A stretch of DNA of 64,000 nt, taken from Cafeteria roenbergensis (Eukaryota > Sar > Bigyra > Bicosoecida > Cafeteriaceae). The notes under the pieces were generated by a model. The model saw only the letters and a program-made list of their open reading frames with translations, searched no databases and was not told the origin of the DNA. This document shows positions 5,323 to 22,316 of the stretch, piece after piece. Within the stretch, counting starts at the first letter, position 1. Every line of letters begins with the position of its first letter. A program made the position numbers and the translations under genes. The stretch covers positions 868,001 to 932,000 of the forward strand of contig VLTN01000003.1 in the NCBI GenBank assembly GCA_008330645.1, read 5' to 3'.

Positions 5323-6893
5323 ATGCAGCAGCCTGCGTTTGCCGTGGACGTGGACCACGCCTGCGCCTGGGCCTTGGACGCCAAGCGAGCGCCTGCTGGC
5401 TGGGAGGCCCAGGTTGAGGCCATCAGAAGCGACCTTCTCAAGGCCCTGGGCGGGCTGCGTGGGTCTCCAGCGGCGGCCGCGTGCGAGTGTCTGCGCACGG
5501 ACGCTGAGGCTTGCGCGCTGCTGGCGGAGCTCGACTGCAGCTGGGGGGCCTGTTTGCGCGAGATGACGGCCAAGGGGCTCGCATCGCGCACAATAACGGG
5601 GGATTTGTCCGACGCGGCGCTCGCGGAGGTCGAGCGCGCCGTGGCTCGTGGCCGGCGCCTGGCTCTCGCTGAGTGCGCGACGACGCTCATGGCAGGCGTG
5701 GCTGTGGAGCTTCCAGCTCTGGGGGCAGCCTACTCGGCCGCGAGCTCGCGGGCCCTGGAGCTGGGAGGCGCTCGGGCAGACGCGGAGCGGCTCGCGGGGG
5801 AGGCGCGGCGGCGGGCGGCCAGGGAGGCGCAGCTGCTCGGAGTGAGCCTCAGCGAGGCGGCGGCACCCGCGGCCAAGGCCCTGCGCGAATGCGGCGCCCC
5901 AGGGTCGGCCGCGGCCGCCGAGGCCGAGTCGGCAGCTGCCTTGTCAACGGGCGGCGCGTCTGTCTGCGCCAGCCCCGGCGCAGAGGCAGTTGCCAAGGCT
6001 GTGGCATCGCCAGCCGTACGCGCAGCGGCTGCGTTCGCGCGCAGCCGGGCGCTCGCGGTGCACGGGCCAGCAGGCGCAGCGGCGGTGGCAGTACCGGCGC
6101 TGGACGAGGTATTCGCCGACGCGGACTCCAGCTCCGAGGGTCGCTTCGAGCGCCTGCTCGAGCCCGGCCGCCGCACCTCGGTGACAGAGGACCTGCAGGT
6201 GCTGGCTTCGTTCCTCCTCGCCTCGGAGCAGGACGTGGCTGCGATGGAGGCCGACCGCAAGGCTGCCGGCCGGGACGGTGGCCCTCCGCTTGCGCCGCTC
6301 GGCGCAGCCCCGCGTGAGTCTGGCAAGTGCGAACACGCTTTTGCGCCAGGGGGTGGTGCTGCACAGGGCCGCCCGCTGTCCCCGCCGCTGCACTGCGCAC
6401 GCCCCGCAGCGTGGGGGCGCCCTTCCCCCCCCCCGCGAGCCGCTGCCTACCCTGCTCCCGCTGCCCCCCCCCCCCCCCCAACCCTTACACCCGCGCAGCT
6501 GCAGTCGCGTCGGCCACACGGCAGGACGTCGCCGCGCACCGAGCTGCCGTGGTCACCGCCATCGCAGCCCTCACGTCAGTGCACGCCGCTGCGGCAGGCA
6601 TGCGAGTCGCGCGCACGGGCGAGGCGGAGGAGGGCGGCCCCCTGTGGCTCGGCACCGTGCCCCAGAGCCTGCAGGCGAGCTACCTGCTGGCCTTCCGGGC
6701 GTCGCAAGCGGGCAAGGCCGCAGCCAGCGCCAAAGCCGAGGCCGCCTCCACGGAGGAGGCAGCTGCCACGGTCATCGGCCGCGCGCGGCAGGCCAGAGCG
6801 ATGTTGCAGGAGGGCATGAGTGCCGTGCTCGGCCGGCGCGTTGTGCTGCGGGGCCGCGAGGGGGAGCTTGGCATCCCGGAGGAGGACGTCTAG
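5323..6893 (+). CDS. Hypothetical alanine-rich helical protein (2 exons)
   Basis: This is a predicted 461-residue protein joined from 5323-6313 and 6499-6893. The 185-nt intron has donor GTGAGT at 6314 and acceptor gcgcag at 6498; the phase-1 junction keeps the frame, and the intron's pyrimidine tract includes 16 consecutive C (6464-6479). The protein is almost wholly alpha-helical and Ala/Glu/Arg-rich, with probable coiled-coil stretches (for example DAERLAGEARRRAAREAQLL) and an acidic C-terminus ending GIPEEDV. The ATG at 5161 is in frame and would add 54 arginine-rich residues, which could act as a targeting sequence; 5323 was chosen because the acidic/helical protein begins there (MQQPAFAVDVDHA). 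No family is recognised. It could be a subunit of a coiled-coil complex, but that is a guess. Confidence 0.6.
6464..6479 (+). repeat. C16 homopolymer in intron polypyrimidine tract
   Basis: Sixteen consecutive cytosines lie about 20 bases before the acceptor at 6498 of the intron 6314-6498. This shows that pyrimidine tracts here are made of C rather than T. Confidence 0.85.
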
Positions 6894-7121
6894 GGGCCGC
6901 GCGCGGCGCTTTCGCCAATGCCGACTCTGCCAGAGTCCACAGTGCTCGGGGAGGCTGTGTGGACGTGCGGGCGAAGCGAGTTAGCTGCCAGGCATGCAAG
7001 CAAGATTGCCCCGCCAACCGGCCCAAGACCGCACGCACGAAACAGCATGGCACGGTGCACTGCCACTCGCCACACCCGGCTGGCTTGACGCGCGGCCACA
7101 CGCGCGTTGGCAAGAACGGAA

Positions 7122-9107
7122 TCAAATTACGCCAGCCATGCCCTTCTTGCTCTTGCCCTTGCGCTTCTTCTTGCTGGCCTTGGGGCTGGGGGCAGGCGCG
7201 ACCGCCGATTTCGCTCCCACGGCGGGCTCATCCGCCTCCCCCGCCGCCTTGGCCGCCGAACAGGAGGAGGAGGAGGAGGACGAAGAAGAAGACGACGACG
7301 ACGACGACGACGACGACGGCGCAGGCGCCTGGGCACCAGGGGCCGCTGCGGTCAGCTGGTCCAAAAGGCCGGCGTCGTCGTCGTCTTCGTCTTCGTCTGC
7401 GTCTTGGTCACGGTCAGCGCTGGCCGGCGCGGGCTTGGCGGCGTCCACAGACCGCCTGGCCCAGGCGCCGTCCTCGGCATCAGCAGCGGACGCTGCGGGG
7501 CTTGCACCCCACACGCTGGAAGCGAGCCCCGCCGCCCCCTCCCCCGCGCGCATGCGGGCAACGGACCTCTGCAGCAGGGCGTCGCGGACGCCGGCGTAGG
7601 GGCCGGAGCTCGGCCCCTCGCTGCGGGGAAGCGCCGCCGGGCCCTCCGCGCGCTCCGCGGCCAGGGCGGCCTCCACCGCGAGGGTGGGCATGCCCTCCAC
7701 GCGCTGGGCCGCCGCGTGCTTCCGGGTGTCGAGTCGCTGCTGCTCGGCCTCGGCCCGCTTCAGCGCCGCGTCCAGGGCCTCGCACAGGCCCTTTCCTTGG
7801 TCGATCGCTGCCCCAGTGCACGCCATGAGCTCGTCCACCGTCATGGGGGCCCCGCCCACCTTGTGGAGGCCGCAGACCTCACCGTGCGCGTTCACGGCGG
7901 CCACAACCACGCCGTCCGAGGCCACCTCCTCTCGCGTCTCCGGGTCGGCCACGGGAAGCACCGCCAGCATGGACGACGAAGCGGCGGCCGAGACCGCTCC
8001 CGATGACGTCACACCTCCAGCGGCAGCGCGCGCCACGGCCGAGGCCGTCTCGGCGGCCGCGCCGCCCGCACCGCTGTCCTTGGCGTCGTCGGCTTCCGGC
8101 GCATCGCCCGCCGCGGCAATCTTTGCCAGAGACGGGCCGAACAGCGCGAAGGACACGCACACGGGCGAGTGGTGGAGGCTGAGGGGCACAGGGGCGCGCT
8201 CGTCGTACCCGTACACCACGACGGAGCCCCCCTCGACACCCACGTCTGCCCGGCGGAAGTGGCGCAGGCACGCCACGGCCGCGAGCACGCACACGTCGGC
8301 TAGCGACCCGGCGTCGTCGAGCACCGTCACGTGCGTGCGCACGTCCCACACGCGGTCGCCGGCCGCAATGCACAGCGCCTCCACATCCACAGCGCGGGCC
8401 TCGCGCAGCACGCGCTCGAGCAAGCGAGCCAGCTCCACTGCGCGCGGGTGCTGGCGGTTCGGCTGCGCGGGAAGGTTGGGCGGGCAAGGCGGGTTGAGCG
8501 AGGGAGTTGCGGGGAATCGCGCAAAGTCCAGCCCGCTGCACACGCAGACAAGTGCCGGCCGCGCGTGCCGTCGGCCCCAGTGAGGGCAGACGCGGCAGGG
8601 GTGCGCGGGCGCCCTCGGCGGGGTGCACGGCGAGCAGCGGGCCTCACCTCGACTGCCACACTGCTCATGGGCGAGAGGTCAACGTCGACGTGAAGAAAGC
8701 CCTCGGCGGGCCTGTCTGGGAATGGCGACACCACGGTGGCCGTCGTCACGGCAATGGCCCGGGTTTGGCCCACCGATACTTCCGCGAGGGCCCTTCCTGC
8801 CGTGCGCTCGAACCGAAACGTGGTCTGCGAGAGCGGGCAGCGCCAGCAAGGTGGGAATCGTTTGGCACAGCGAAGGCTCGGCTCTCCCAGGCCGAGCAAG
8901 CTCCCAGCCAGAGTCTGCACTTTGCGGGCACCCCCGCGTAAGCGGAATCGGCTTGTGACCGCGCCGTGAGGGCTGCGCGGCGATGCTGCTCACTGGGCGG
9001 CGCTCCATCAAGCGGCGGCCGTCCTCGCGAACGCCCTCGGCAACGGCGCGCAGGATAAAGTCCGTCTCCAGGGTCGAGATGACGTCCATCCACGGCTGCA
9101 TTGCCAT
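7122..9107 (-). CDS. EXOSC9: Exosome complex component RRP45 (EXOSC9), 3 exons
   Basis: The product is an RNase PH-like ring subunit of the RNA exosome, which processes and degrades RNA in nucleus and cytoplasm. The coding sequence joins 9107-8994, 8824-8648 and 8462-7122 (introns of 169 and 185 nt, donors GTGAGC and GTGAGG, acceptors cgcag, all phase 0), giving 543 residues. Exon 1 carries DFILRAVAEGVREDGRRL, equivalent to the human FLLRAIEEKKRLDGR segment. Exon 2 carries FRFERTAGRALAEVSVGQTR and FLHVDVDLSPM. Exon 3 carries ALCIAAGDRVWDVRTHV, LRHFRRADVGVEG and the hallmark VPLSLHHSPVCVSFALF. The core resembles human EXOSC9 throughout. The C-terminal tail adds an acidic stretch, an uninterrupted run of about 19 serines and a lysine-rich end (KASKKKRKGKSKKG), perhaps a nuclear or RNA-binding tail. 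It is divergent from the fusion gene at 9263, 155 bp away. Confidence 0.92.
7262..7320 (-). repeat. Triplet microsatellite coding for poly-Ser
   Basis: GAG/GAC/GAA triplets on the plus strand read as about 19 consecutive serine codons (mostly TCG/TCC) in the EXOSC9 C-terminal tail. Such tracts mutate by slippage and suggest an unstructured linker. Confidence 0.85.
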
Positions 9108-9262
9108 GGCGGCGGGCGGCGCGGCGCGGGCTCGACGGCGCCGGGTGGGCATCACAAGAAAAGACGCCTCTGCTGCCCCGGGGCGCGGCTCTGCCGGCGG
9201 GCTGCAGAGTTGGCACGCGCTGCGGCAGCCTCGCAGCGGCGCGCGTGCAGCACCCGGAAGCC
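9108..9262. promoter_or_regulatory. Short bidirectional promoter region (EXOSC9 / fusion enzyme)
   Basis: Only 155 bases separate the start codons of EXOSC9 (leftward) and the phosphorylase-deaminase fusion (rightward), so both promoters must overlap here or extend into the first exons. No TATA-like sequence is visible; the stretch is GC-rich. Confidence 0.5.
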
Positions 9263-11983
9263 ATGGCAGAATCCGCAGTATGCTTCGGCATCATCGGGGG
9301 CTCCGGCCTCATGAAGAGCAAGCTGCCCATGTTCGCTGACATGCGTCGCGAAGAGGTGCACACCCCGTCGGGGTCGGTGCTGCTCCGCAAGGCCACGCTT
9401 CCCTCCGGCGCGACCCTGGTCTTCGTGCAGCGGCACAAGGCCTCGCCCAGCGAGTCCTACGCCCAGCCCAGCGACATCAACTTCGCGGCGATCGCGCAGG
9501 CGCTCCAGGCTGCGGTGAGCCAGCAAGGGCCGCGCGCGCGGCGACAGCGCAATCCGGGCCCGAAGCGCTTCGTTGGCTGAAGCGACCTCAGTCGGCACCT
9601 GCTCCCCGCTCGCCGAGGAGCGTGCGTCCGGTGTGAACTGCAGGCGCCCCGCAACCGATGCGTCCTGCGCGCTGTGTTGCGGAGCGCCGCTGCGCCCCCG
9701 CCCCCTGCCACGGTGCGACCAATCCGCGCGCGCGCCCGTCGCGTTCGCAACGTCGCAGGGCTGCCAATGCGTCGTCGGCGTGTACTCGGTCGGCTCCCTG
9801 ACCACCAGCATCCCGGTGGGCGCGTTTGTCGTGGCCGACGACTGGTTCTGCCCCCATGACGTGCGCCGCGTCAGCACGGGCTACTCCGCCCATTTCATGC
9901 CCACGGTCGACGAGGAGATGCGGGCCGCGCTCATCGCTTCGGTGAAGGAGGCCGGCATTACCCCCGTCGTGAGTGTGTTGCCTCGAGAGTGCTCCCTGCG
10001 CCCACCCGCCTTTTCGTCGCGTGTGCGCGCCCAAGCCGGGCCTCAAGTTTGTTGCTTGCCACCCAGTCCCCTCGACTGCCCTCGCACTGCCCACACCCCT
10101 CCTCGTGTCCCTTTGCGCAGACGGCAGGCACCTACGTCAATGCCAGCGGGCCCCGCTTCGAGACCAAGGCGGAGATCCGCTCGTTTGCGCTCTCCGGCCA
10201 GGTGCTCGGCATGACCGCGGCTCACGAGGCCACGGCCTGCGGCGAGCTCGGGCTCAAGTTCGGCATGCTCTGCGCCGTCGACAACATGTGCCACGGCATC
10301 GGTGCGCCCTTTGACCTGGACGCCTTCCACGCCGCCCAGGACGCCAACCGCGGCGCCCTGGAGCGCACCATCGCCAAGGCCCTCCCGGCCATCGAGGCCG
10401 TCGCCCGCCGTGCCGGCCCCGCAGTGGCGCCCGCCGACATGGACGAGAGCGTCACCCCCAAGGCCTCAACCTCCTCCTCTTCTTCCTCCTCCTCTTCCTC
10501 CTCCACTGCCGCCGCGTCCGCGGCGGAGCCCAGCGCCAAGACTGGCGCTGCTGCTGCTGCTGCTGCTGCCGCCACGGACGCTGTCGCCGCGGGAGGCAAG
10601 GCCGCCGCGGACATGGTCATCCACGCTCGCTGGATCGTTCCCGTTGAGCCCACGGACGTGGTGTACGAGCACCACGCCGTCGTTGTCCGCGACGGGCTCA
10701 TCCTCGCCATCATGCCCTCCCACGAGGCCACCGCCAGGTTCGAGGCCTCGACCGTGGTCCGCAAGCCGCACCACGCCATCATGCCCGGCTTCGTCAACGC
10801 TCACACCCACCTCGGCATGACCGCCCTTCGCGGCCTCGGCGACGACAAGCCCCTCTTCGAGTGGCTCACCACCGCCATCTGGCCCACAGAGGGCCGCCTC
10901 ATGTCCGCGGAGTACGTTCGCGCTGGCGTGCGCATCGGCCTCGCCGAGATGATCCGCGGAGGCACCACCTGTGTCAACGACATGTACTTCTTCCCGAACA
11001 TCCTCGCGGAGGAGCTCATCCGCTCCGGCATGCGCGGCTGCATCGGCCCCCCGATCATGGAGTTCCCCTCCGCCTGGGCCGGCGGCGCCGATGACTACCT
11101 CGCCAAGGCAGAGGAGGCCATCACGGCCTCGCGCGCGAAGGACCCCCTCCGCCTTCTCTCCCACTCCATCGCCCCACACGCCCCCTACACTGTCAAGGAC
11201 GCCACCTTCACCAAGTGCCTCGCCGCCGCCGAGCGCCTGGACGTGCGCCTGCACGTGCACCTGCACGAGACCAAGGCCGAGGTCGACGACTCCGTGCACG
11301 GCTCCGACACCCCGAACCGCCACCTCAGCGCCAACAAGTGCTCTCCCGTCACCAACCTCCTCCGCCTGGGCGTTCTTTCTTCGCGCACCATTGCCGTGCA
11401 CATGGCAAACCTCACCGACGAGCACATCGAGGAGGCCGCGGCCTCCGGCGCCCACGTCGTGCACTGCCCGCACTCCAACATGAAGCTGGCCTCTGGCTTC
11501 TGCCGCGTCCTCGACCTGCAAAAGGCCGGCGTCAACGTGGCCATCGGCACCGACTCGTGCGCCTCCAACAACAAGCTCGACATGATGGCAGAGATGCGCA
11601 CCACCGCCCTCCTCGCCAAGGTCGTGGCCTCGGACCCAACTGCCGTCGGGGCAACGACCGCCCTCCGCATGGCCACTCTCAACGGCGCCAAGGCCATCGG
11701 CCAGGAAGATCGCACCGGCTCCCTGGTGCCTGGCAAGAGCGCCGACTTTATCACCGTGGACATGTCCTCCATCGAGGCGCTGCCCATGTACGACGTGCAG
11801 TCCCACCTCGTGTACGTGTCCGACCGCAGCCACGTCACCGACGTCTGGGTTCACGGCCGCCGCCTCATGGCCGACCGGAAGCTCACCTCCATCGACTACG
11901 ACGCCGCCGTCGCCTCTGCGCACGCTTGGGCTGTGCGCGTCAAGCCCACTTGCGAGACCGAGGGCGACGACGAGGACGCCTGA
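9263..11983 (+). CDS. Fusion: methylthioinosine phosphorylase-like + MTA/SAH deaminase-like
   Basis: The predicted protein has 774 residues, joined from 9263-9514, 9759-9968 and 10121-11983 (introns of 244 and 152 nt, GT-AG, phase 0). Residues 1-245 form an MTAP/PNP-family phosphorylase domain with phosphate loop IIGGSG (10-15), QRH (56-58), YSVGSL, GPRFETKAE (164-172) and MTAAHE (185-190). The purine-contact region reads CAVDNMCHGI instead of the ATDYDCW of human MTAP. A Ser/Ala-rich linker covers about 265-317. Residues 318 to about 765 form an amidohydrolase of the MtaD/TRZ-ATZ type with HTH (382-384), HLHE (534-537), AVHMANL, VVHCPHSNMKL and GTDSCASNNKLDMMAEMR, so the metal ligands and catalytic Glu/Asp appear present. 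Inferred role: deaminate 5'-methylthioadenosine to methylthioinosine, then phosphorolyse it to hypoxanthine and methylthioribose-1-phosphate, in one polypeptide. Splice joins are supported by continuous homology to MTAP. Confidence 0.88.
10460..10600 (+). repeat. TCC/GCT triplet tracts coding for interdomain linker
   Basis: A TCC/TCT tract (about 10470-10506, encoding roughly 12 serines) and a GCT tract (about 10546-10570, poly-Ala) make the flexible linker between the phosphorylase and deaminase domains of the fusion enzyme. Confidence 0.8.
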
Positions 11984-12474: not shown

Positions 12475-15400
12475 TCATTCGCCACTGAGCAGTTTTTGCC
12501 GAGAGCCGACCACGGACAGCCCAGGCGGCGCCACCGACAGCGTGGACTTGATCGACCAGCCCGAAGTGCCGCCTAGGCCCTTGATCACCGAGCTCCCCTG
12601 GCCATCGCCCGACGCCCTCTGCGACACCCTGCTGGAAGTGCTGCGGACGCGCCGCCGCTGCCCGCGCGTGCTGCCGTCGGGGCCATGGGACCGGCCGTCA
12701 TGGGGCTGGGTGTCGGCCTGAAACGCGCGGCCGAGGTCCGCCACCAGCCCAAGCGCCGTCTCCCGAAGCGAAACATCGCTGGCACGTCCAGCAGTGTCGT
12801 CGTCGGCGGCGCCGCCGGCGGCGGCGGCGGCGCCGCTGCTGCGCATCGCGAACGTATCGCTGGATTCAGCGCCGCTTCCCAGCCTTGCCGCCCTGTCTGA
12901 GGGCCGCCTGCTCGCCATGCGAATCAGCGGCGTGGCGGGGACAGCCCCCGAAGCTGCCGCAGAGGGTTCGGCCTCGCCGCGCAGCGCCTCGGCGGGGCCA
13001 GCTCGCCCACCAGAAGCCGCGTCGCCCACCTGCAGATCCGCCACAGCGAAGCCGGCGTCTTCCCTGCGCGGATGCCGGTTGCGGCCTCTCTGGGCTGCGG
13101 CCGCCGGCCCTGCATCGCTCGGCGTGTTGGGGCGAGTGACGTCCCAAGCCGACGGCGGCCGTGATGCGGGGCGGCTCAGAGCGCTACTGGGGCGGGTCGG
13201 CACGGCTGCTCCGGCCGATGGCGGCGACTGCTGCGGGGGCGCAGCCAGGGGCTGAGGCGCCGTCTTGAGGCTGCCGCGACCAGCCTGCCGCCTCCCAGCG
13301 TCGATCGGCGCAGTGGGGGGAATGTCCCGGGCCCAGGACGGGACCTCTGGCTCGCTGTCCTGGAGCAAGGGCCGGGCGGGCCGCAGCCGCTCCAGCAGCA
13401 CGCTCTGCGTCGGTCTCGCCCGCCCTCCTGCGCGCGCGTGCAAGGTCTCGGCCTTGCTTGTCCCGGCGGACCGGGCGCTCGGAGCAACAGCGCGGCCCGA
13501 CGGCGCCAGGGTGAGGTCAGGCGGCTGCGCCGCGCTCAAGGCCTGGGGCGGTTGCGACTGCGCCACCCTCATGGCCGAGACTTGGACCGGTCCCCCGGCG
13601 CGCAGCCCGCCCTTGAAGGCCGAGAGAGGGCGCTCTGTCGCGCCCCGGGGCAGCGCCATGCCCACCGCGAGCGCCTGCTGCAGGGCGGCGCTGGAGTCGC
13701 GCCTGCCAGCCGACGCGTGGGCTGCCGACGCGTCGGCTGGCCGCCTCGCCCTGTCCCCGCCTGGCAGGCTGGCGCCGAAGACACCATGTTCCTGCCCCTC
13801 CTGCTGGCCGAGCACCGGCTGCTGGCGGTGTCTGGCAAGCCGCGGCCTGGCGTGCCTCGCGAGCTCCCGCCTGGACAGCCCGATGGCTTGCTCCTCTGCC
13901 CTAGAGAGGCCTGGCGGCCGGTACGCTCCCTGCCCCGCGGCAGAGGCCGTCCCCGAAGTGGCGGTCGTGCCAGCGCCCGCGACGCCAGGCCGCATGGGCG
14001 AGGCGGTGATGGAGTGCCTTCGCGCCTGGCTGGGAGCGGCGAGGCCAGCAGCCTCCTCCGGGACTGCCAAGCGTGGCCTCGGCGCGCGGGCGGCTGCCAT
14101 CGCGGCAAGAGAAGCGGCAAGGTCCGCCTCGCCCGGCGTCTGAGAGACCCCCTTCAGCGCCAGGAGCGGCGCAGACACCGCCGTGGCAGGGGAAGGCAGC
14201 GGGCGCGGCGGGCCGTGGTCTGAAGCTTCGCCATGCCCGCCCTCCGCCGCTCCCGCCTGCCCAGCGAAGGCAGGCAGCCCGTCTGCCTGCTCCCAGGGCG
14301 AGGTGCTTGCCTCCAGGAAGGCTGCCGTCGGGGAGAGCCTGGCGGGACCGGGGGTGCTGCTCGCGACCCAGTCGTCGAACCGGAGGCGCCGCTCGGCCTC
14401 GGCCTTGGCGCTCGTTGCCGTGGCAGCCGCCCACCACGGATCGAGCGAGCCGTCCCCGCCGGCGCCGCCGTTGCCTGCCGCAGAATGCGCCCGCGTGGCG
14501 GCGAGCAGCTCTGCGGCAACGCCGGGGCGCCGGCCCTTGGTGCGCGGGTGGGGCGCCCGTAGGATGGCCTCCGCGGCTGCGGCCGCAGCTGCGGCCTGCG
14601 AGCCCCCTGCCGCAGCAGCGTGCGCAATCGCTGCTCGAGCTCCCGCGGTCAGGCTGAGCGACGTGCCAGGGCGCGCGGGAGTCGGAGCCCCTGCTGCCTC
14701 AGCTGCCGCAGCCCCGACCGCGAACGCAATTGCGAGCTTGGACGTCAGCCCGCCATCCGCCGCGGCCGAGTGCGGGGCGAGGTGGGCCGCGCGCAGCAGC
14801 GACGGCGTCGTGGCCTTGAGGAGCACGGGCCAGTCGTCGTCGGCGTAGGCTGGCCGGAACGGGCGGAACGCCTCGTCCTCCAGAGCGCGCCATCGCTCCA
14901 TTTGCTCCCGCTCGAACAGCTCGCGGGCGGAGGAGTGGCGGTCCTCGGCCTCCAGCCCTGCTGTCTCGCGCGCCTGGTTGTTGAGCTCCTGGGTGATGCG
15001 CTGCAGCCGCTCGGCCCCGCGCGCAGCGGCCAGCGTGGCCGATTTCCGGTAGCGGCGCAGCCACTCTGCCCGGGCCGCCGCTTCAGCCTCGGCCGCCTTG
15101 CGCAGGCGCTCCTCCTCCGCCAGCTTCTGGCGCCGGGCAAGCTCCCGCGCCTTCGCGAGCGCCTCCTCCCGCGCCCGCCGCTCCTCGGCAGTGAGTCCGT
15201 CCGGGTCGGCGGCGCGCTCCGCCGCCTCGCGCCGGCGCTGCGCCTCCTCCTCGCGAATGCGGGCTTCCTCGGCGCGCTTGGCGGCAAGGTCTTCGTCGTC
15301 CAGCTCGTCCTCCTGAGCGCGACGGCGGGCGATGGCTTCGCCCCAGTCCCGCCGAGACTTGTTTCGTTCCTCTTCGGCAGCTGCCGCGGCTGCAGCACGG

Positions 15401-18400
15401 GCCTCGTCTGTCAGGTCCTGCGCCCCGGTTTGATGCCCGTCGCGAGGCGTGGCCTGGGCGCTGGCTGCAGGGGTGCCGCCCAGCGACCCGAGGGGCGACG
15501 CGGGGGAGCGTGTCCCGCTGCCGGGCGACGCGGCGCCGCTCATGCCCCCGAAGCGCAGCAGATCGCCCCCGTCACCGTCCTCGTCGTCGCCGTGGCCGTG
15601 ATCGCTGCGCTCGTCGTCGTCCTCCTCGTTTCTCGCCGGCTGCGGAGCAGGCGCCGCCTTCGGAGCCGCCTTTCCCTTCCTCTTCGTCTGCTTGCTGCCC
15701 CTGCCGCTGCCGGGCTTGCGGCTCGACCGCCCGCTCCCCTTGCTGCTCGGCATCGGCGAGGCGCGGCCTTGCGAGTCGGCGGGCCCCTGGGCAGCGGCCG
15801 ATGCCGGCTTGCTTCGCTTGCGCCTGCGCTCGGCCTTGGCGCGGCGCCGCTCCTCGCGCGCGGCGGCTCTGGCCGCCAACGCTGCGGGCAGCGCGCCTTC
15901 CATCGTGCGCGTCGTCGACTCGTCCACGGCAAAGAGGTCCACCCTGGACGCCCCGACGTCGCGCCGCACTGCCTCGCTTGCCGCGACGTCGTCGGGCATG
16001 GGGAAGGGCGCGTCTGCTTGCGACCCAGCGGCCTTCCACTGGTCGACGGCTACGACTCGCACGGACGTGGCGGCCGAGGCTGCTTCGCGCGGCGACAGCG
16101 CGCTGGCAATGGCCCACGCTGGCAGCGGCTCGGCGTGACCGGGCGGCGCAGCGGCCGGGTCCCCAGCCCCTGCGGCTCCGCGTGGGAGCTCGACCGCCGG
16201 CACAGGAGGGTGCAAGGCCGTGGTCTCGCCAAAGCCAGCGGGCCGCTTGGACGACCTGCTGCTTCCGGGCCGGCGCCTTCCGCCCGCGCGCCTCGCGCTC
16301 TGGCTCGAGTGGGTGTCCCGCCGCATGCTCTTGCCAAGCGGGCCGGCAGACGGCTTCGAGCCAGAGCTGCCTCCGGAAGCGCTGTCCGCGCCGGCGTTGC
16401 CCGGGACCGCGTCTGAGGAGAGCACGTCCAGCTCAAGGCTGTGCGTCACCCCTCCCCCGCCCCCCATGCCGCCCGCGGTGACCAGCGCCGGGTCGCCGGT
16501 GCGCGACCCGGGCGTTGAGACGGCCAGGCGTGCCCCTGCCGGGAGGAACTCTGCCGAGAGCCTGGCCTTGGCGGGGCGGGAGGCGGCCGGCTCTCCCTCG
16601 GTGCCCTCGGAGCCAGCGGGGCGGCCCGCGTCGCTGGCGCCTCCTTCTGCTCCTCCGTCTTGCGTCGCGGCCGCACCCTTTTCGTCGCCGGGAGAGCTGT
16701 CCGAGTCGCCGTCGTCGCTTGCTCCGCCGTCAAGCTCGACCGAGAACTCTGCGGCGCCCTTCCACCCGCGGCACCACCGCAAGGCCTGCGCGGCCCGGCG
16801 CCTCAAGAACCGGGCGCGCACCTGCTGGGCCCCCACGCTCTGGTACCACCGGCGGAACGCAACCCAGCGGCGCCAGGCCACGTGCGCCGCCCTCTCAAAG
16901 TCGTCGTGCACCCTGTCGTCATCCTCGACCTGCGCCTGGGAGAGGGACGTGGTGGTCGCGCCCGCGCGCTGCTGCATGTACTGCCGCATCTCTTGCGCCG
17001 CGCCCTTGACCGTGACGAGCCCGGCAGCCACTCGCAGCAGGGGGTCCTCCCACCGCCGCTCCCAGCCCTCCAGGTCGCCCAGCAGGCGCGCCAGGCGGTT
17101 TGAGGTCCCGCCCACTGGCAGGGCGGTGGCGGAAGAGGCCCCAAGCTTGTCGGCTTCGGCAGCCGGGGCCGCAGCGTCGCCGTCGTCCGCCGCCGTGCTC
17201 TTGCCGTCCATGGCAGCCAGGGCGGCCTCGGCCACTCGTCTGACCGCGACGTCGGCCGCGGCTGCAAAGAGCTCGCGGCTCAGGAACGCCGCCCGAGCCG
17301 TGGCACCGTCGCCACTGGGGGTTGCATACCACTGCACGAAGGCGTCGAGCCGCCGGGAGGCCGCGGCGTGGCCTTCCGACGCCTGGCTGAACTTGCCTGC
17401 CGCGGCCACATCCGCCTCCGTCAGAGCCCCGTCGCCTCCAATGTCGGCCGAGCCAGGCGGAGCGCCCGCTGCCCTGCCTCCAGCGCGGCGCATCCACCTG
17501 GCGTCCTCGGGGCACGGCACGGAGATTCCGGCCGCCACGGCGGCGTCCCTGACGCGCCTGTCGAGCGCCGCAGCGGAGGCCTCAACCAGCTGCAGCGCGT
17601 TCGCCTGCTTCGCCCAGCTGACCCCCTCGTAGTGGGCGCGCAACGCCCCCTCGCCCGCCTTGGCCCTGTCTCGCCTCCAGAGCCGCACCTTGACCAGGAA
17701 GGACTGCATGACCCGGTTCGCCGCCTCGTTGCGCCGCCGGACAAAGTGCGCCGACTTGAGGGCCTTGTTCTCCTTCATGAAGCCGCGCAGAGCGCGCGTG
17801 CGGGACGAGCGGGTGACTGCGCCTCGCAGGGCCGCCGCGTCCTCTCTGCGGCTCAGAACCTCGGGCTTGACCAGCCGGTGGTCCGACTGCGACTCGAAGA
17901 GGCCGTGGCCGCTGCTGGACGGGTCGTCGAAGCGAGGGTGCGGGATGGAGGGGGCGGACATGCGGTGCAGCGCGCTGGAGCCCTCGCCGGGCCACCGCGT
18001 CGAGGAGGACCCGCCCATCGGCTCGAGCCGATCGCGCCGCTCTGCAGAATCGGCGTCGTCGTCCTCGTCGCTGTTGGACAGCGCAGCGTCGGTGGCCTGC
18101 GAGCCGGGAGTGAGGAACTGAACGGACGGCAGGCTCAGGAGTCCGTCGGGGCTCATCGCGCCCGCTCTGGAGCCGGGGGAGAGAACCGACGTGCCCGCGA
18201 GCACGGGCGTCCCTCTGGCCGCCCAGGGGCCCTTCGAGGACGCGACCGACATGCGGCGGTCCGGGGGGTCGTCGCCGTCCAAGGGTTCTTCACTGGGGTA
18301 CTCTCGGGCGTCAGTGGCATCGTAGCCTTGGGACGGAGGGGTGCTGGGCGCCTGGGTCATGTCTCGCCGGGCATCCGAGGCGGCAGAGCCAATCCCACGG

Positions 18401-21400
18401 TGTGAGACCTCCGACGCACTCTCGCCGGCCGACACCGCGCCTGGGCGCCGGTTGTGCCACTCGCCCATGCTGCCTCGCGACGTCCCCGGGCTGGGCGTGC
18501 GGTCGACGCGTTCCCGCATGCCGGGCGGGGAAGAGGCGCCTCCCGCTGCGTCTCTAGCCGACGCTGGGGACGGCGGGCGGGGCGGCGGGCGCACCTCTGC
18601 CGAGGGCGATGGCGCGCCGCCAGCGACGGGCGCTTCGGGGCCCCGCCCGTCGGTCTCGTCGCTGGCGCCGTCCTCGTCGTCCTCGCTCGCGGCTGCCTCG
18701 GCAAGACAGCGCCCCAGGAACGGCCTGCGCACGTCATGCGCTTCGTCCAGGAACCTGACGAAGCCCGCGAGCGCCTCTGCGAGGTCGTCGGCCTCAGCGG
18801 AGCCAGGGGGGGCCGCAAGCAAGGCCTCCAGCTCAGCGAGGGTGGGAATGCTCTGCCCGGCCTCCTCGGCGCCCCTCCTGACCTCTGCGTCTTCCAGGGC
18901 TTCGGCGGCCAGGTCGGCGCGCGTTGCGAGATCGCACTGCTTCCAGAAGGCGTCGGCGACGCCGGCGTCCTGCAGCGACGCTGCCTCGGCCTCGCGGCTG
19001 AACCGGCTGCGCGCCTGCACGGCGTCAGGCAGGCGGCTGAAGTACCAAGCCGCAAAGGGCAGCACGATTGCCCGCGCAATGCGGCTCGGTGCCGTGATCA
19101 GCATGGGGCGCGGCACGACGAGCTCTCGTGCCAACGCCGCCCGCTTGACCGCCGCGTTCTGCACGCAGGCCGCCAGCTCGAGCGCGCAATCGGGGTCGTC
19201 GAGGAACGCGAGGGCCTCCGCGTCGCTCAGGAGCGCAGGCTCCGCATCTTCCGGTTGGCGAGGGGCCTTCCGACGCACGTCAGCCGCGTCGCCGGCAGGC
19301 GAGGCCTCGGCCGAAGCGGCGTCCTTGGCCCACGCGTCCGTGTCGACCTCCACGACGAGCCCGTCGCTGGCCATGACGACGGCGTTCCCGCGGCTGCGAG
19401 CCCGCAGGCAGCACAGCATCAGGGGCACCGGCCCGTCCACCGCAGCCTCGATCACCGAGCAGCGGAGCAGCATGCGCCCCAGCGCGGCCTGTCCCTGGCC
19501 CCTCGCCTGCAGGGCCGCCCGGCGCAGCGCCGCGCGGGTGGCGTCGGCGCCGTGCTTTGCCGCGGCGCTCAGCTGCGACAGCAAGGCCTCCTCCTCGGGT
19601 GAGAGGTTGGGCCTGGCGAGGCCGACGCCCACCATGCCGCCCGCGTGCGCCGTGCCCACCGAGCGGCCCAGGGGTGCCACCAGCGTGGCCTGTGGACTTG
19701 CCAGCGGCCCGTTGCGGAGCACAGCCGCCCTCGCAGCCGCGCGCCTAGCCTTGGCCTCTGCCGCCAGCTCTGCCGCGGACTTGCGCGCCCCCACGCGGAG
19801 GGCGTCGAGCCCCGGGGCCAGGGCAAGGCGCAGGGTGGACGCCCGGCTAGGGCCGCGGTCGAAAGGTGCCGATCCCGTGGCGCCGCCGGGCGGCAGCGAG
19901 TCTGCGGTCCGCCGGCCGGGGGCGGGCCCCGCTGTGGCTGCCATGCGCGCGTTGGGGGCGGCGAGCCGCGTCGACGGGTCGGACAGCCCCAGGTCCGCCG
20001 CGAGGCCGGGGTGCTGGAACGGGCGCGCCGTGGCCGCTCGCCTGGCCGCATCGGCTGCCGCCACCCCGCCCCCGCGCCTCGCACCCTTGGATCGGGCACG
20101 GTCCCGCCCCGAAGCGGCGGTCGCTGCGCTGAAGGCGACAGTGCGCCGCCCCGCCCCCACAGGCGACTGCGCTGGGCCGAGCCTGCGAGCGGGCTTTGCC
20201 GACACGGGCGAAAACGGCACCGGCGAGCCGCTAACGCTGGGCATGGTCGACCTGGGAGTGCCCACTGGCGATGCCGGGGGCCGAGCGGAGGCTGCCGGCG
20301 CAAGGCTGCCCAGCGCGGATGGCCGCCGCCGCCCGGCGGCAGGCTCGCCTGGCTGACGCTGCAGACCCGCCGCCCTGCCCGGCGACCCCGCAGAGGACGG
20401 GCCGAATCCCGGACGGGCGCCGGAGCTCGAGAGGACCGTCGGTGACCCGGACCCGGGCGCCTCGACCACGAGCGGCGCGCCTGGGCGCCGTGTGGAGTGG
20501 TTCAGCACGAGGCGGCCGCTGGCGCCACCTGCAGCGCCCATGCTCGCAGTGGCTGCTGCCGCGACGGGCCTGCCGGCCCCGGAAGGGGGGGCACCGCCGC
20601 GCCCGCTTGCGCCAGCGGCGGGCGCGCGGCCACCGGACGTCGCCCCTGCGGCACTGGCCCCGCTGCTGGCGACTGTCCGCCCAGTCCTCTGCGCGAGTGA
20701 GGACGCGGCGGCGCGCAGCGGCGTGGTGGCGGCCAGCGACCCAGCATCCCTCCTGCGGCCCTGGAGCCCCCCGCTGCGGGACCGCGAGAGGCCTGCGCCG
20801 GCGGCAGCGCCCGCGGGCCAGGACCCGTCGCCCCACGCCTGCGTGGGGTCGGTCGCAGGCCTCCGTGCCTGGGACGCGGCGCCGTCGTGCGCGGACTGCG
20901 GCAGGCCGGGAAGCGAGCTGGAGAGAGAGAGCACTGCAGAGGCAGCCTTGCCGCCGTGCACGACCCGCCGGCGGGAGCGCGACCGCTGGACGGAGGCAGC
21001 GTCCACTGCCGCGGTCATCGCGGCGTCGCCCTTCTCTTGCGCCCTGGACGCGGCCGCAGCCGCGGCGCGGAATCGCTCCACCTCCTCGTCCAGCCGCTGC
21101 GGAGCGCCAAGCTCCAGCGCCATCCCCGGGTCCAGCAGCGCTGACCTGAGCTGCACCCCTGCCCCTGGAGCGAGCGCTTCCTTGGTCTCAGAGGGGGGGC
21201 TTGCAGCTTTCCGCCTCCTCGGCAACGTCGACGCGCTGTCGGTTGCGCGCGGTTTCGCCGGCAGCAGGTCGGCCCCTGCAGAGGCAGCCCTGCTAGCGCC
21301 TCCCGACGACGCGGACGGCCCGATTCCGGGCTTGCTAGCCGCCTCCATGGCGGTCGCTGCGCCGGGCGGCAGCGGGAGCTCCGGCAGCAGCGCCTGGCCG

Positions 21401-22083
21401 AGCCTCCGGGGTCCGAACTCGGGGCTCAGACCGCCTCCGCCGGGAGAGGCCTCCCGAGCCCACGGCGACCCCTTGGGCCGTGTGCCGCGGTCGGTGTCGA
21501 AGCCCGCTCGCAGCGAGGACGGCGCCTTGGAGCGGGCCCCTCGCCGGCTGGCCGAATGGTGCGTCGTTGCGGCGCTGTGCGGCCGCTCCGCCCCGACCCC
21601 GGCGGAGGAACCGCGGCCCTCGGGGACCGCGCCGGGGCCTTCCGGCGGGATCTCAACAAGGACGGGGGGCTGCACAGGCAGCGCGTCAACGGCGGCGCGA
21701 AGCCGCGCGACTTGCAGCCGCTGCGACGAGGGCATCTGCAATCGCGGCAGCTCGCCCTCCACGGACCGGCTTGCAGTCGAGGCTGACGCCCTGTGCCCGA
21801 ACTGGAACTCGCTGACGTTTGCGGACGCATGCATGGGTCCCAGGTGCGCCGAGCCGGAGACGGAGGCCAGAGCTTTCGCGCTCGTCGGTGTGTTGTCGTG
21901 AGCGTTGGGCCTCAGTTCCGGAACGCACGCCTTCCGCTCCCCGCTCCCCAGCGTGCTCACAGGCCCAGCTGAGCTGGCGTCGGTATACCTGCTGTCGTCG
22001 TGCAGGCTGGCGGACGGGTGCTGCAGCTCGGCCAGCACGGCGCTTTGCCTCAACTGTCGGCCGGACCCGCCGGACGCCCGCAT
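12475..22083 (-). CDS. Giant hypothetical protein, coiled-coil and disordered
   Basis: A single uninterrupted frame of 3202 residues runs from the ATG at 22083; a frame this long cannot arise by chance. I do not recognise it. Residues 1 to about 760 are low-complexity Ser/Pro/Ala/Arg. About 760-1130 is a folded-looking helical region (containing PLMLCCLRARSRGNAVVMA). About 1430-1535 holds a basic helical segment (ANRVMQSFLVKVRLWRRDR). About 1728-1785 has spaced Trp residues (AWRRWVAFRRWYQ, then ALRWCRGWK) reminiscent of a few Sfi1/IQ-like helices. About 2235-2445 is a highly charged Glu/Arg/Ala coiled coil. The rest is disordered. This organisation suits a cytoskeletal or basal-body scaffold, consistent with the Sfi1-like neighbours, but that is inference. 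It is divergent from ARPC3, with start codons about 235 bp apart. Confidence 0.75.
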   Translation of the reverse strand: MRASGGSGRQLRQSAVLAELQHPSASLHDDSRYTDASSAGPVSTLGSGERKACVPELRPNAHDNTPTSAKALASVSGSAHLGPMHASANVSEFQFGHRASASTASRSVEGELPRLQMPSSQRLQVARLRAAVDALPVQPPVLVEIPPEGPGAVPEGRGSSAGVGAERPHSAATTHHSASRRGARSKAPSSLRAGFDTDRGTRPKGSPWAREASPGGGGLSPEFGPRRLGQALLPELPLPPGAATAMEAASKPGIGPSASSGGASRAASAGADLLPAKPRATDSASTLPRRRKAASPPSETKEALAPGAGVQLRSALLDPGMALELGAPQRLDEEVERFRAAAAAASRAQEKGDAAMTAAVDAASVQRSRSRRRVVHGGKAASAVLSLSSSLPGLPQSAHDGAASQARRPATDPTQAWGDGSWPAGAAAGAGLSRSRSGGLQGRRRDAGSLAATTPLRAAASSLAQRTGRTVASSGASAAGATSGGRAPAAGASGRGGAPPSGAGRPVAAAATASMGAAGGASGRLVLNHSTRRPGAPLVVEAPGSGSPTVLSSSGARPGFGPSSAGSPGRAAGLQRQPGEPAAGRRRPSALGSLAPAASARPPASPVGTPRSTMPSVSGSPVPFSPVSAKPARRLGPAQSPVGAGRRTVAFSAATAASGRDRARSKGARRGGGVAAADAARRAATARPFQHPGLAADLGLSDPSTRLAAPNARMAATAGPAPGRRTADSLPPGGATGSAPFDRGPSRASTLRLALAPGLDALRVGARKSAAELAAEAKARRAAARAAVLRNGPLASPQATLVAPLGRSVGTAHAGGMVGVGLARPNLSPEEEALLSQLSAAAKHGADATRAALRRAALQARGQGQAALGRMLLRCSVIEAAVDGPVPLMLCCLRARSRGNAVVMASDGLVVEVDTDAWAKDAASAEASPAGDAADVRRKAPRQPEDAEPALLSDAEALAFLDDPDCALELAACVQNAAVKRAALARELVVPRPMLITAPSRIARAIVLPFAAWYFSRLPDAVQARSRFSREAEAASLQDAGVADAFWKQCDLATRADLAAEALEDAEVRRGAEEAGQSIPTLAELEALLAAPPGSAEADDLAEALAGFVRFLDEAHDVRRPFLGRCLAEAAASEDDEDGASDETDGRGPEAPVAGGAPSPSAEVRPPPRPPSPASARDAAGGASSPPGMRERVDRTPSPGTSRGSMGEWHNRRPGAVSAGESASEVSHRGIGSAASDARRDMTQAPSTPPSQGYDATDAREYPSEEPLDGDDPPDRRMSVASSKGPWAARGTPVLAGTSVLSPGSRAGAMSPDGLLSLPSVQFLTPGSQATDAALSNSDEDDDADSAERRDRLEPMGGSSSTRWPGEGSSALHRMSAPSIPHPRFDDPSSSGHGLFESQSDHRLVKPEVLSRREDAAALRGAVTRSSRTRALRGFMKENKALKSAHFVRRRNEAANRVMQSFLVKVRLWRRDRAKAGEGALRAHYEGVSWAKQANALQLVEASAAALDRRVRDAAVAAGISVPCPEDARWMRRAGGRAAGAPPGSADIGGDGALTEADVAAAGKFSQASEGHAAASRRLDAFVQWYATPSGDGATARAAFLSRELFAAAADVAVRRVAEAALAAMDGKSTAADDGDAAAPAAEADKLGASSATALPVGGTSNRLARLLGDLEGWERRWEDPLLRVAAGLVTVKGAAQEMRQYMQQRAGATTTSLSQAQVEDDDRVHDDFERAAHVAWRRWVAFRRWYQSVGAQQVRARFLRRRAAQALRWCRGWKGAAEFSVELDGGASDDGDSDSSPGDEKGAAATQDGGAEGGASDAGRPAGSEGTEGEPAASRPAKARLSAEFLPAGARLAVSTPGSRTGDPALVTAGGMGGGGGVTHSLELDVLSSDAVPGNAGADSASGGSSGSKPSAGPLGKSMRRDTHSSQSARRAGGRRRPGSSRSSKRPAGFGETTALHPPVPAVELPRGAAGAGDPAAAPPGHAEPLPAWAIASALSPREAASAATSVRVVAVDQWKAAGSQADAPFPMPDDVAASEAVRRDVGASRVDLFAVDESTTRTMEGALPAALAARAAAREERRRAKAERRRKRSKPASAAAQGPADSQGRASPMPSSKGSGRSSRKPGSGRGSKQTKRKGKAAPKAAPAPQPARNEEDDDERSDHGHGDDEDGDGGDLLRFGGMSGAASPGSGTRSPASPLGSLGGTPAASAQATPRDGHQTGAQDLTDEARAAAAAAAEEERNKSRRDWGEAIARRRAQEDELDDEDLAAKRAEEARIREEEAQRRREAAERAADPDGLTAEERRAREEALAKARELARRQKLAEEERLRKAAEAEAAARAEWLRRYRKSATLAAARGAERLQRITQELNNQARETAGLEAEDRHSSARELFEREQMERWRALEDEAFRPFRPAYADDDWPVLLKATTPSLLRAAHLAPHSAAADGGLTSKLAIAFAVGAAAAEAAGAPTPARPGTSLSLTAGARAAIAHAAAAGGSQAAAAAAAAEAILRAPHPRTKGRRPGVAAELLAATRAHSAAGNGGAGGDGSLDPWWAAATATSAKAEAERRLRFDDWVASSTPGPARLSPTAAFLEASTSPWEQADGLPAFAGQAGAAEGGHGEASDHGPPRPLPSPATAVSAPLLALKGVSQTPGEADLAASLAAMAAARAPRPRLAVPEEAAGLAAPSQARRHSITASPMRPGVAGAGTTATSGTASAAGQGAYRPPGLSRAEEQAIGLSRRELARHARPRLARHRQQPVLGQQEGQEHGVFGASLPGGDRARRPADASAAHASAGRRDSSAALQQALAVGMALPRGATERPLSAFKGGLRAGGPVQVSAMRVAQSQPPQALSAAQPPDLTLAPSGRAVAPSARSAGTSKAETLHARAGGRARPTQSVLLERLRPARPLLQDSEPEVPSWARDIPPTAPIDAGRRQAGRGSLKTAPQPLAAPPQQSPPSAGAAVPTRPSSALSRPASRPPSAWDVTRPNTPSDAGPAAAAQRGRNRHPRREDAGFAVADLQVGDAASGGRAGPAEALRGEAEPSAAASGAVPATPLIRMASRRPSDRAARLGSGAESSDTFAMRSSGAAAAAGGAADDDTAGRASDVSLRETALGLVADLGRAFQADTQPHDGRSHGPDGSTRGQRRRVRSTSSRVSQRASGDGQGSSVIKGLGGTSGWSIKSTLSVAPPGLSVVGSRQKLLSGE

Positions 22084-22316
22084 GGCGCACGCCCCTGAGC
22101 GCTTGCTGCTCCGCCGGCGCCAGGCTCGCCGGGCTGGCGAAAGGCTAGGCTGGGGGCAGAGGGGCGCGGCCGGGCAGCCGTGGCGTTGCTGCGCCGCTGG
22201 CGGAGTGCCGCAGTCGAGGGCTCGCGCTGTGAATCTGGCGAGTCAGTTCCGCTCCAAATCATGAAAGACCTCGCAAGACAAACAGGCATCACTGGCACTT
22301 GCAGCGCCCGCAAGCG
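22084..22316. promoter_or_regulatory. Divergent promoter region (giant protein / ARPC3)
   Basis: A 233-base region lies between the start codons of the leftward giant gene and rightward ARPC3. No TATA box is obvious. It must contain both 5' UTRs and core promoters. Confidence 0.45.

Follow-up and report, generated by a model that had tools for sequence, protein, structure and literature searches.

A 64,000-nucleotide stretch of the genome of the bicosoecid Cafeteria roenbergensis (assembly GCA_008330645.1, contig VLTN01000003.1, positions 868,001 to 932,000; hereafter the window) contains a gene whose 774-residue product joins an N-terminal phosphorylase to a C-terminal amidohydrolase. 5'-Methylthioadenosine (MTA) is a by-product of polyamine synthesis; most eukaryotes split it with a single enzyme, MTA phosphorylase (MTAP), whereas some bacteria and archaea use two enzymes in succession. 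The fusion is probably a bifunctional MTA deaminase/5'-methylthioinosine (MTI) phosphorylase, with its substrates, reaction order and physiological role inferred. The amidohydrolase would deaminate MTA to MTI. The phosphorylase, which has the MTAP fold with a base site of the MTI (6-oxopurine) type, would then convert MTI and phosphate to hypoxanthine and 5-methylthioribose-1-phosphate. Hypoxanthine would pass to HGPRT and methylthioribose-1-phosphate to MtnA, and the fusion would replace MTAP in Cafeteria and perhaps elsewhere, for instance in Hondaea, a labyrinthulomycete that also carries it.

An earlier note on this DNA had described a complete amidohydrolase joined by a Ser/Ala linker to a domain of the MTAP/purine nucleoside phosphorylase (PNP) family. 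Both halves are indeed complete, and all quoted motifs were located: IIGGSG (residues 10-15), GPRFETKAE (164-172) and MTAAHE (185-190) in the phosphorylase, and HTH (382-384), HLHE (534-537), HCPHSN (602-607) and GTDSC (630-634), followed by ASNN, in the deaminase. The note had also proposed the two-step route for this eukaryote. The complete halves, the MTI-type base site and the lack of an MTAP above cut-off in the genome favor that proposal, but the route was already known in a eukaryote (Plasmodium). The same pair of domains occurs in at least 38 further database proteins. Using our own profiles, 40 of 252 fetched proteins were fusions, including two from the window, namely the spliced protein and its unspliced frame (P0006).

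Deaminase half and salvage genes of the genome

Pfam Amidohydro_1 matches residues 374-735 (E 3.9e-67). The NCBIfam model PRK09045, for the MTA/adenosine deaminase branch of the TRZ/ATZ family, scores 575.3 bits over residues 315-763, above its cut-off of 540. The HxH, HxxE, H, H and D residues of such deaminases have metal-binding and catalytic roles. H382 and H384 are kept in all 40 fusions, and H534, E537, H581, H602 and D632 in all 38 that have letters at these positions. In a fold search with the model of the Hondaea relative, the closest solved structures included methylthio-ligand ones, 4gbd and, going by its title, 4f0r. Two transcriptome proteins, P0221 and P0145, carry the same deaminase with an extra N-terminal stretch, which contains a PF11717 domain in P0221, and represent a second kind of deaminase fusion.

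The exon-by-exon search recovered MtnA and ARD in pieces, showing that it works in this genome. The MTAP model, applied to the earlier question of a separate MTAP gene, had no match above cut-off; its five partial matches fall on the fusion, C89 and C84. Pfam PNP_UDP_1 gave eight matches genome-wide in five genes: the fusion, an inosine/guanosine PNP (C89), two uridine-phosphorylase-like genes (C11 and C20, the latter weak at 24.8 bits) and C84. Genes for HGPRT, SAH (S-adenosylhomocysteine) hydrolase and an adenosine deaminase-family protein score above cut-off, APRT-like and spermidine-synthase-like genes are present below cut-off, and no match to methylthioribose kinase was found in the genome. 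The fusion is the only clear full match to Amidohydro_1, that of C5 being weak and partial. With no recognizable MTAP in this inventory, the fusion is the best candidate in the genome for the conversion of MTA to methylthioribose-1-phosphate. Separately, C84 (96508-97347, L006) is a divergent MTAP-like gene that scores 78 bits against the MTAP model, lacks Asp-x-Asp by eye and lies within an 836-residue open frame.

The fusion might instead act mainly on 5'-deoxyadenosine from radical-SAM (S-adenosylmethionine) enzymes, on SAH or on adenosine, via 5'-deoxyinosine, S-inosylhomocysteine or inosine, with MTA as a side substrate. The NCBIfam 5'-deoxyadenosine deaminase model also matches the deaminase half, at 273.9 bits against a cut-off of 522, and the structure 4f0s, from the same deaminase group, contains inosine. 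An archaeal MtiP has been described that accepts six purine nucleosides and handles 5'-deoxyinosine (PMC6302742). Against this alternative stand the methylthio ligands among the nearest solved kin and the presence in the genome of SAH hydrolase and of separate adenosine deaminase-family and inosine/guanosine PNP genes, with no recognizable MTAP. We consider this alternative unlikely.

Phosphorylase half

The base site of the phosphorylase half reads Asn209-Met-Cys211 instead of the Asp-x-Asp of MTAP. Asn is present at this position in 40 of 40 fusions, with Ala (31) or Cys (9) two positions further on. The MTI phosphorylase of Pseudomonas aeruginosa (3ozb) has Asn and Ala, and Asn was found in 80 of the 81 phosphorylase rows of prokaryote homologs. 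The MTAP model TIGR01694 of NCBIfam gave 124.7 bits on this half, below its cut-off of 274.85. The MTI phosphorylase model PRK09136 (P. aeruginosa type) gave 87.3 bits, below its cut-off of 223, so that the half is not assigned to that curated family. A control gene with Asp-Tyr-Asp on L023, a contig of an archaeal metagenome-assembled genome, exceeds the cut-offs of both models, so the MTI phosphorylase model does not tell the two kinds apart. This contig carries an MTI-type phosphorylase, a deaminase and the Asp-Tyr-Asp phosphorylase within 3.4 kb (6001-9399).

The higher score of TIGR01694 could suggest that the phosphorylase half is an MTAP acting on MTA, that the deaminase has a task of its own, with SAH or another adenine nucleoside as a conceivable substrate, and that the fusion merely joins two enzymes of related pathways. 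NCBI also calls the Hondaea protein an MTAP, and the phosphorylase fold comparison does not discriminate (for this comparison P0026 was modeled apart, since all matches listed by the fold search with the full fusion model were deaminases). Nevertheless, the replacement of Asp-x-Asp by Asn-x-Ala/Cys in every fusion and the adjacency of deaminase genes to prokaryote homologs with the same signature in 47 of 80 loci make a direct MTAP very improbable.

Recurrence of the fusion and integrity of the gene

The phosphorylase is N-terminal in all 40 fusions. The number of fusions is an underestimate because the protein searches contributed their 120 best matches each, out of 3575 and 7950 respectively; among the best 120 matches of the deaminase-half profile, 26 are fusions. 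A phosphorylase-half search limited to fusion-length proteins gave 18 matches, and all 18 have both Pfam domains. One carrier is Hondaea fermentalgiana (P0140). Hondaea belongs to Labyrinthulomycetes and Cafeteria to Bicosoecida, both within Bigyra, and most other carriers are metagenome proteins. Transcriptome open reading frames labeled complete contain both domains in P0008 and P0139 (MMETSP) and in P0163 (GECG transcript record, EukProt), indicating that single transcripts cover both domains in relatives. The domain pair, which the earlier note suggested seeking in other protist proteomes, occurs beyond this genome as well. Database names capture one side only: the Hondaea protein is "S-methyl-5'-thioadenosine phosphorylase" at NCBI, and the JGI name for a fusion protein is 5-methylthioadenosine/S-adenosylhomocysteine deaminase. 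Oomycetes encode the two enzymes separately, with P0029-P0037, P0039 and P0040 as phosphorylases and P0142, P0146, P0180, P0230 and P0233 as deaminases. One scan of viral_contigs for the fusion gave 69 pattern matches, and none of them is a relative.

The gene was modeled with three exons, in agreement with the earlier description; the two introns are of the GT-AG type and in phase 0, and splicing yields one frame of 774 residues. No Met other than that of the ATG at 9263 occurs after the preceding in-frame stop and before the phosphorylase fold, and in the spliced frame the codons of residues 85 and 155 open exons 2 and 3 exactly, at 9759 and 10121. Predicted proteins of relatives contain an unrelated stretch ending in Q just before the first residue of exon 2 (P0007, P0010, P0059, P0157, P0193, P0219, P0234) or of exon 3 (P0012, P0017 and the window's own P0006). 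These stretches look like read-through of CAG-ending introns and support the exon model. A single uninterrupted open frame (9860-11983) covers the end of the phosphorylase together with the linker and the entire deaminase, so the fusion does not depend on the splice model. In favor of a merger of two neighboring genes by annotation or assembly, the genome is GC-rich and contains many long open frames, and the data include no transcript from the window species. Such a merger is nevertheless hardly credible, given this uninterrupted junction and the recurrence of the same domain order in 38 further proteins, of which three come from transcriptomes.

The linker is of low complexity and measures 12-89 residues in 37 of 40 fusions and 3 residues in P0187 and P0231; the figure of 272 for P0001 arises from a split domain match. 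In the Hondaea model, pLDDT values below 50 are restricted to the linker and the N-terminus. Such a variable and flexible linker favors a tether over a fixed tunnel, and the tether probably keeps both enzymes close together and at equal dose; the specific channeling of MTI that the earlier note put forward is a hypothesis.

Phylogenetic analysis

In the phosphorylase tree, from which rows of fewer than 215 profile positions were excluded and for which prokaryote loci were thinned to 18, 13 of the 14 fusions cluster with seven partial rows (support 92). Next to this fusion group, at a node with support 90, stand one long row and a set of 17 rows that contains the oomycetes (support 100). P0226, the remaining fusion, sits on a long branch beyond them, and red algae, Vitrella and Balamuthia are placed farther out. 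Two apparently standalone phosphorylases, P0026 and P0027, nest in the fusion group; they may have lost the deaminase half or represent split genes on short contigs. The phosphorylase halves (14 fusions and seven partial rows) were not rejected as one clade (p-AU, the approximately unbiased test, 0.65). Constraining the fusions to one group with the sampled prokaryote phosphorylase rows gave a p-AU of 3e-42, a value that is uninformative on a captured operon as source of this half, since metagenome and archaeal standalone sequences that nest among those rows were outside the constrained group.

The deaminase tree contained 80 rows; P0006 and the short fusions P0051 and P0059 were excluded, and metagenome and prokaryote rows were thinned. 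All sampled eukaryotic sequences group with gammaproteobacterial TRZ/ATZ deaminases and away from the eight sampled operon deaminases (support 100). These eight form a clade separate from the eukaryotic sequences, which argues against a captured operon as the direct source of the deaminase half. The first test on this half rejected a single clade, with p-AU values of 6e-5 (37 fusions), 3e-5 (a core of 33) and 1e-5 (fusions and oomycetes). Its "not fused" group included P0143, a protein of 438 residues encoded on a contig of 1357 nt. P0143 pairs with the fusion P0153 in the tree (support 100) and could be a fragment of a fusion too. With P0143 removed, a choice made only once the tree was known, one deaminase clade could no longer be rejected (p-AU 0.10, with a log-likelihood lower by 25.7), and p-AU was 0.22 for fusions and oomycetes and 0.51 for all eukaryotic deaminases in the set together with P0223.

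The fusion may have a single origin. Weighing against this, P0013, P0179, P0226 and P0229 fall outside the two main fusion blocks of the quick deaminase tree, which are themselves not joined, and the "fusion" label requires six changes in each quick tree. A broader scenario is that one ancestral fusion in Bigyra (bicosoecids and labyrinthulomycetes) made the bifunctional enzyme, displaced MTAP and passes MTI from site to site, with little free MTI and no adenine, repeating the archaeal and deltaproteobacterial gene pairing with a deaminase of gammaproteobacterial type. We offer this scenario tentatively and regard it as doubtful.

Features of the locus

The features of the gene are listed in Table 1. 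Upstream, on the opposite strand, lies an RNase PH/exosome-subunit-like gene with both RNase_PH domains (7125-8678, minus strand). A 3255-residue open frame (12478-22242, minus strand), convergent with the fusion gene, is rich in Ala, Ser, Arg and Pro and has no Pfam match.

Table 1 Coordinates of the fusion gene and its parts in the window.
Feature	Position	Strand	Basis
Gene, three exons, 774-residue product	9263-11983	+	Splice model and translation
Exon 1, translation start plus N-terminal third of phosphorylase domain (residues 1-84), IIGGSG inside	9263..9514	+	Splice model, translation
Intron 1, 244 nt, GTGAGC...CGCAG, phase 0	9515..9758	+	Splice model; acceptor position echoed in seven relatives
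Exon 2, middle of phosphorylase domain (residues 85-154)	9759..9968	+	Splice model, translation
Intron 2, 152 nt, GTGAGT...CGCAG, phase 0	9969..10120	+	Splice model; acceptor position echoed in P0012, P0017
Exon 3, C-terminal part of phosphorylase, linker, entire deaminase, stop codon	10121..11983	+	Single open frame 9860-11983
Phosphorylase (MTAP/MTI phosphorylase fold) domain, residues 1-246, split by both introns	9263..10396	+	Pfam PNP_UDP_1 at 9-241, E 3.1e-25
Asn209 codon, purine-base residue (Asp in MTAP)	10283..10285	+	Base-site comparison
Ser/Ala-rich linker, 69 residues (26 Ala, 15 Ser)	10397..10603	+	Domain limits
MTA deaminase-like amidohydrolase domain, residues 316-765 (Pfam core 10778-11863)	10604..11953	+	Pfam; model of Hondaea relative

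Comparison with known systems

In this eukaryotic lineage, the MTAP step has apparently been exchanged for a fused deaminase-phosphorylase, with hypoxanthine instead of adenine as the purine product. If this is true, models of methionine and purine salvage would change for thraustochytrids and bicosoecid grazers. The one-sided database names can be corrected, and the fusion offers a natural construct for probing MTI channeling by enzyme fusion.

The MTA deaminase (4dyk/4gbd; PA3170) and MTI phosphorylase (3ozb) of P. aeruginosa are two chains encoded at separate loci, whereas Cafeteria has one polypeptide. Likewise, oomycetes such as Saprolegnia diclina (P0032, P0146) have two proteins where Cafeteria has one; these homologs neighbor the fusions in the phosphorylase tree, and P0146 scores above the PRK09045 cut-off. 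In Plasmodium, adenosine deaminase (ADA) and PNP are not known to be fused. This eukaryote takes the same two steps, from MTA through MTI to hypoxanthine, but relies on ADA and on a hexameric PNP of the E. coli type (PMC3885546). The two-step route is known from P. aeruginosa, and MtiP and 5'-deoxyadenosine deaminase of the archaeon M. jannaschii have also been described; Tetrahymena MtnAK and MtnBD are fused methionine-salvage enzymes in a protist, which concern later pathway steps and other enzymes than the Cafeteria fusion (PMC6302742). In agreement with the earlier note, which knew of no described fusion, the literature searched, covering few subscription papers and some sources in part, gave no description of an MTA deaminase/MTI phosphorylase fusion. 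The Cafeteria protein is a fusion of two known enzymes on a known route, real, recurrent and apparently not described before.

Gene pairs of archaea and bacteria, mostly deltaproteobacteria, offer a further parallel. The 80 loci considered are the best of 596 phosphorylase-profile matches, ordered by their similarity to an archaeal protein. In 47 of them a deaminase gene immediately follows the phosphorylase on the same strand, indicating a recurrent link between this kind of phosphorylase and a deaminase. The other 33 have no deaminase (nine with less than 1.3 kb downstream and 24 with more), and none of the 80 contains a fusion. The archaeal and deltaproteobacterial pairs encode the same two enzymes as the fusion, phosphorylase first and with the same base-site signature, but as separate genes, and the eight of their deaminases that were sampled form a clade of their own, unlike the gammaproteobacterial-type deaminases of eukaryotes.
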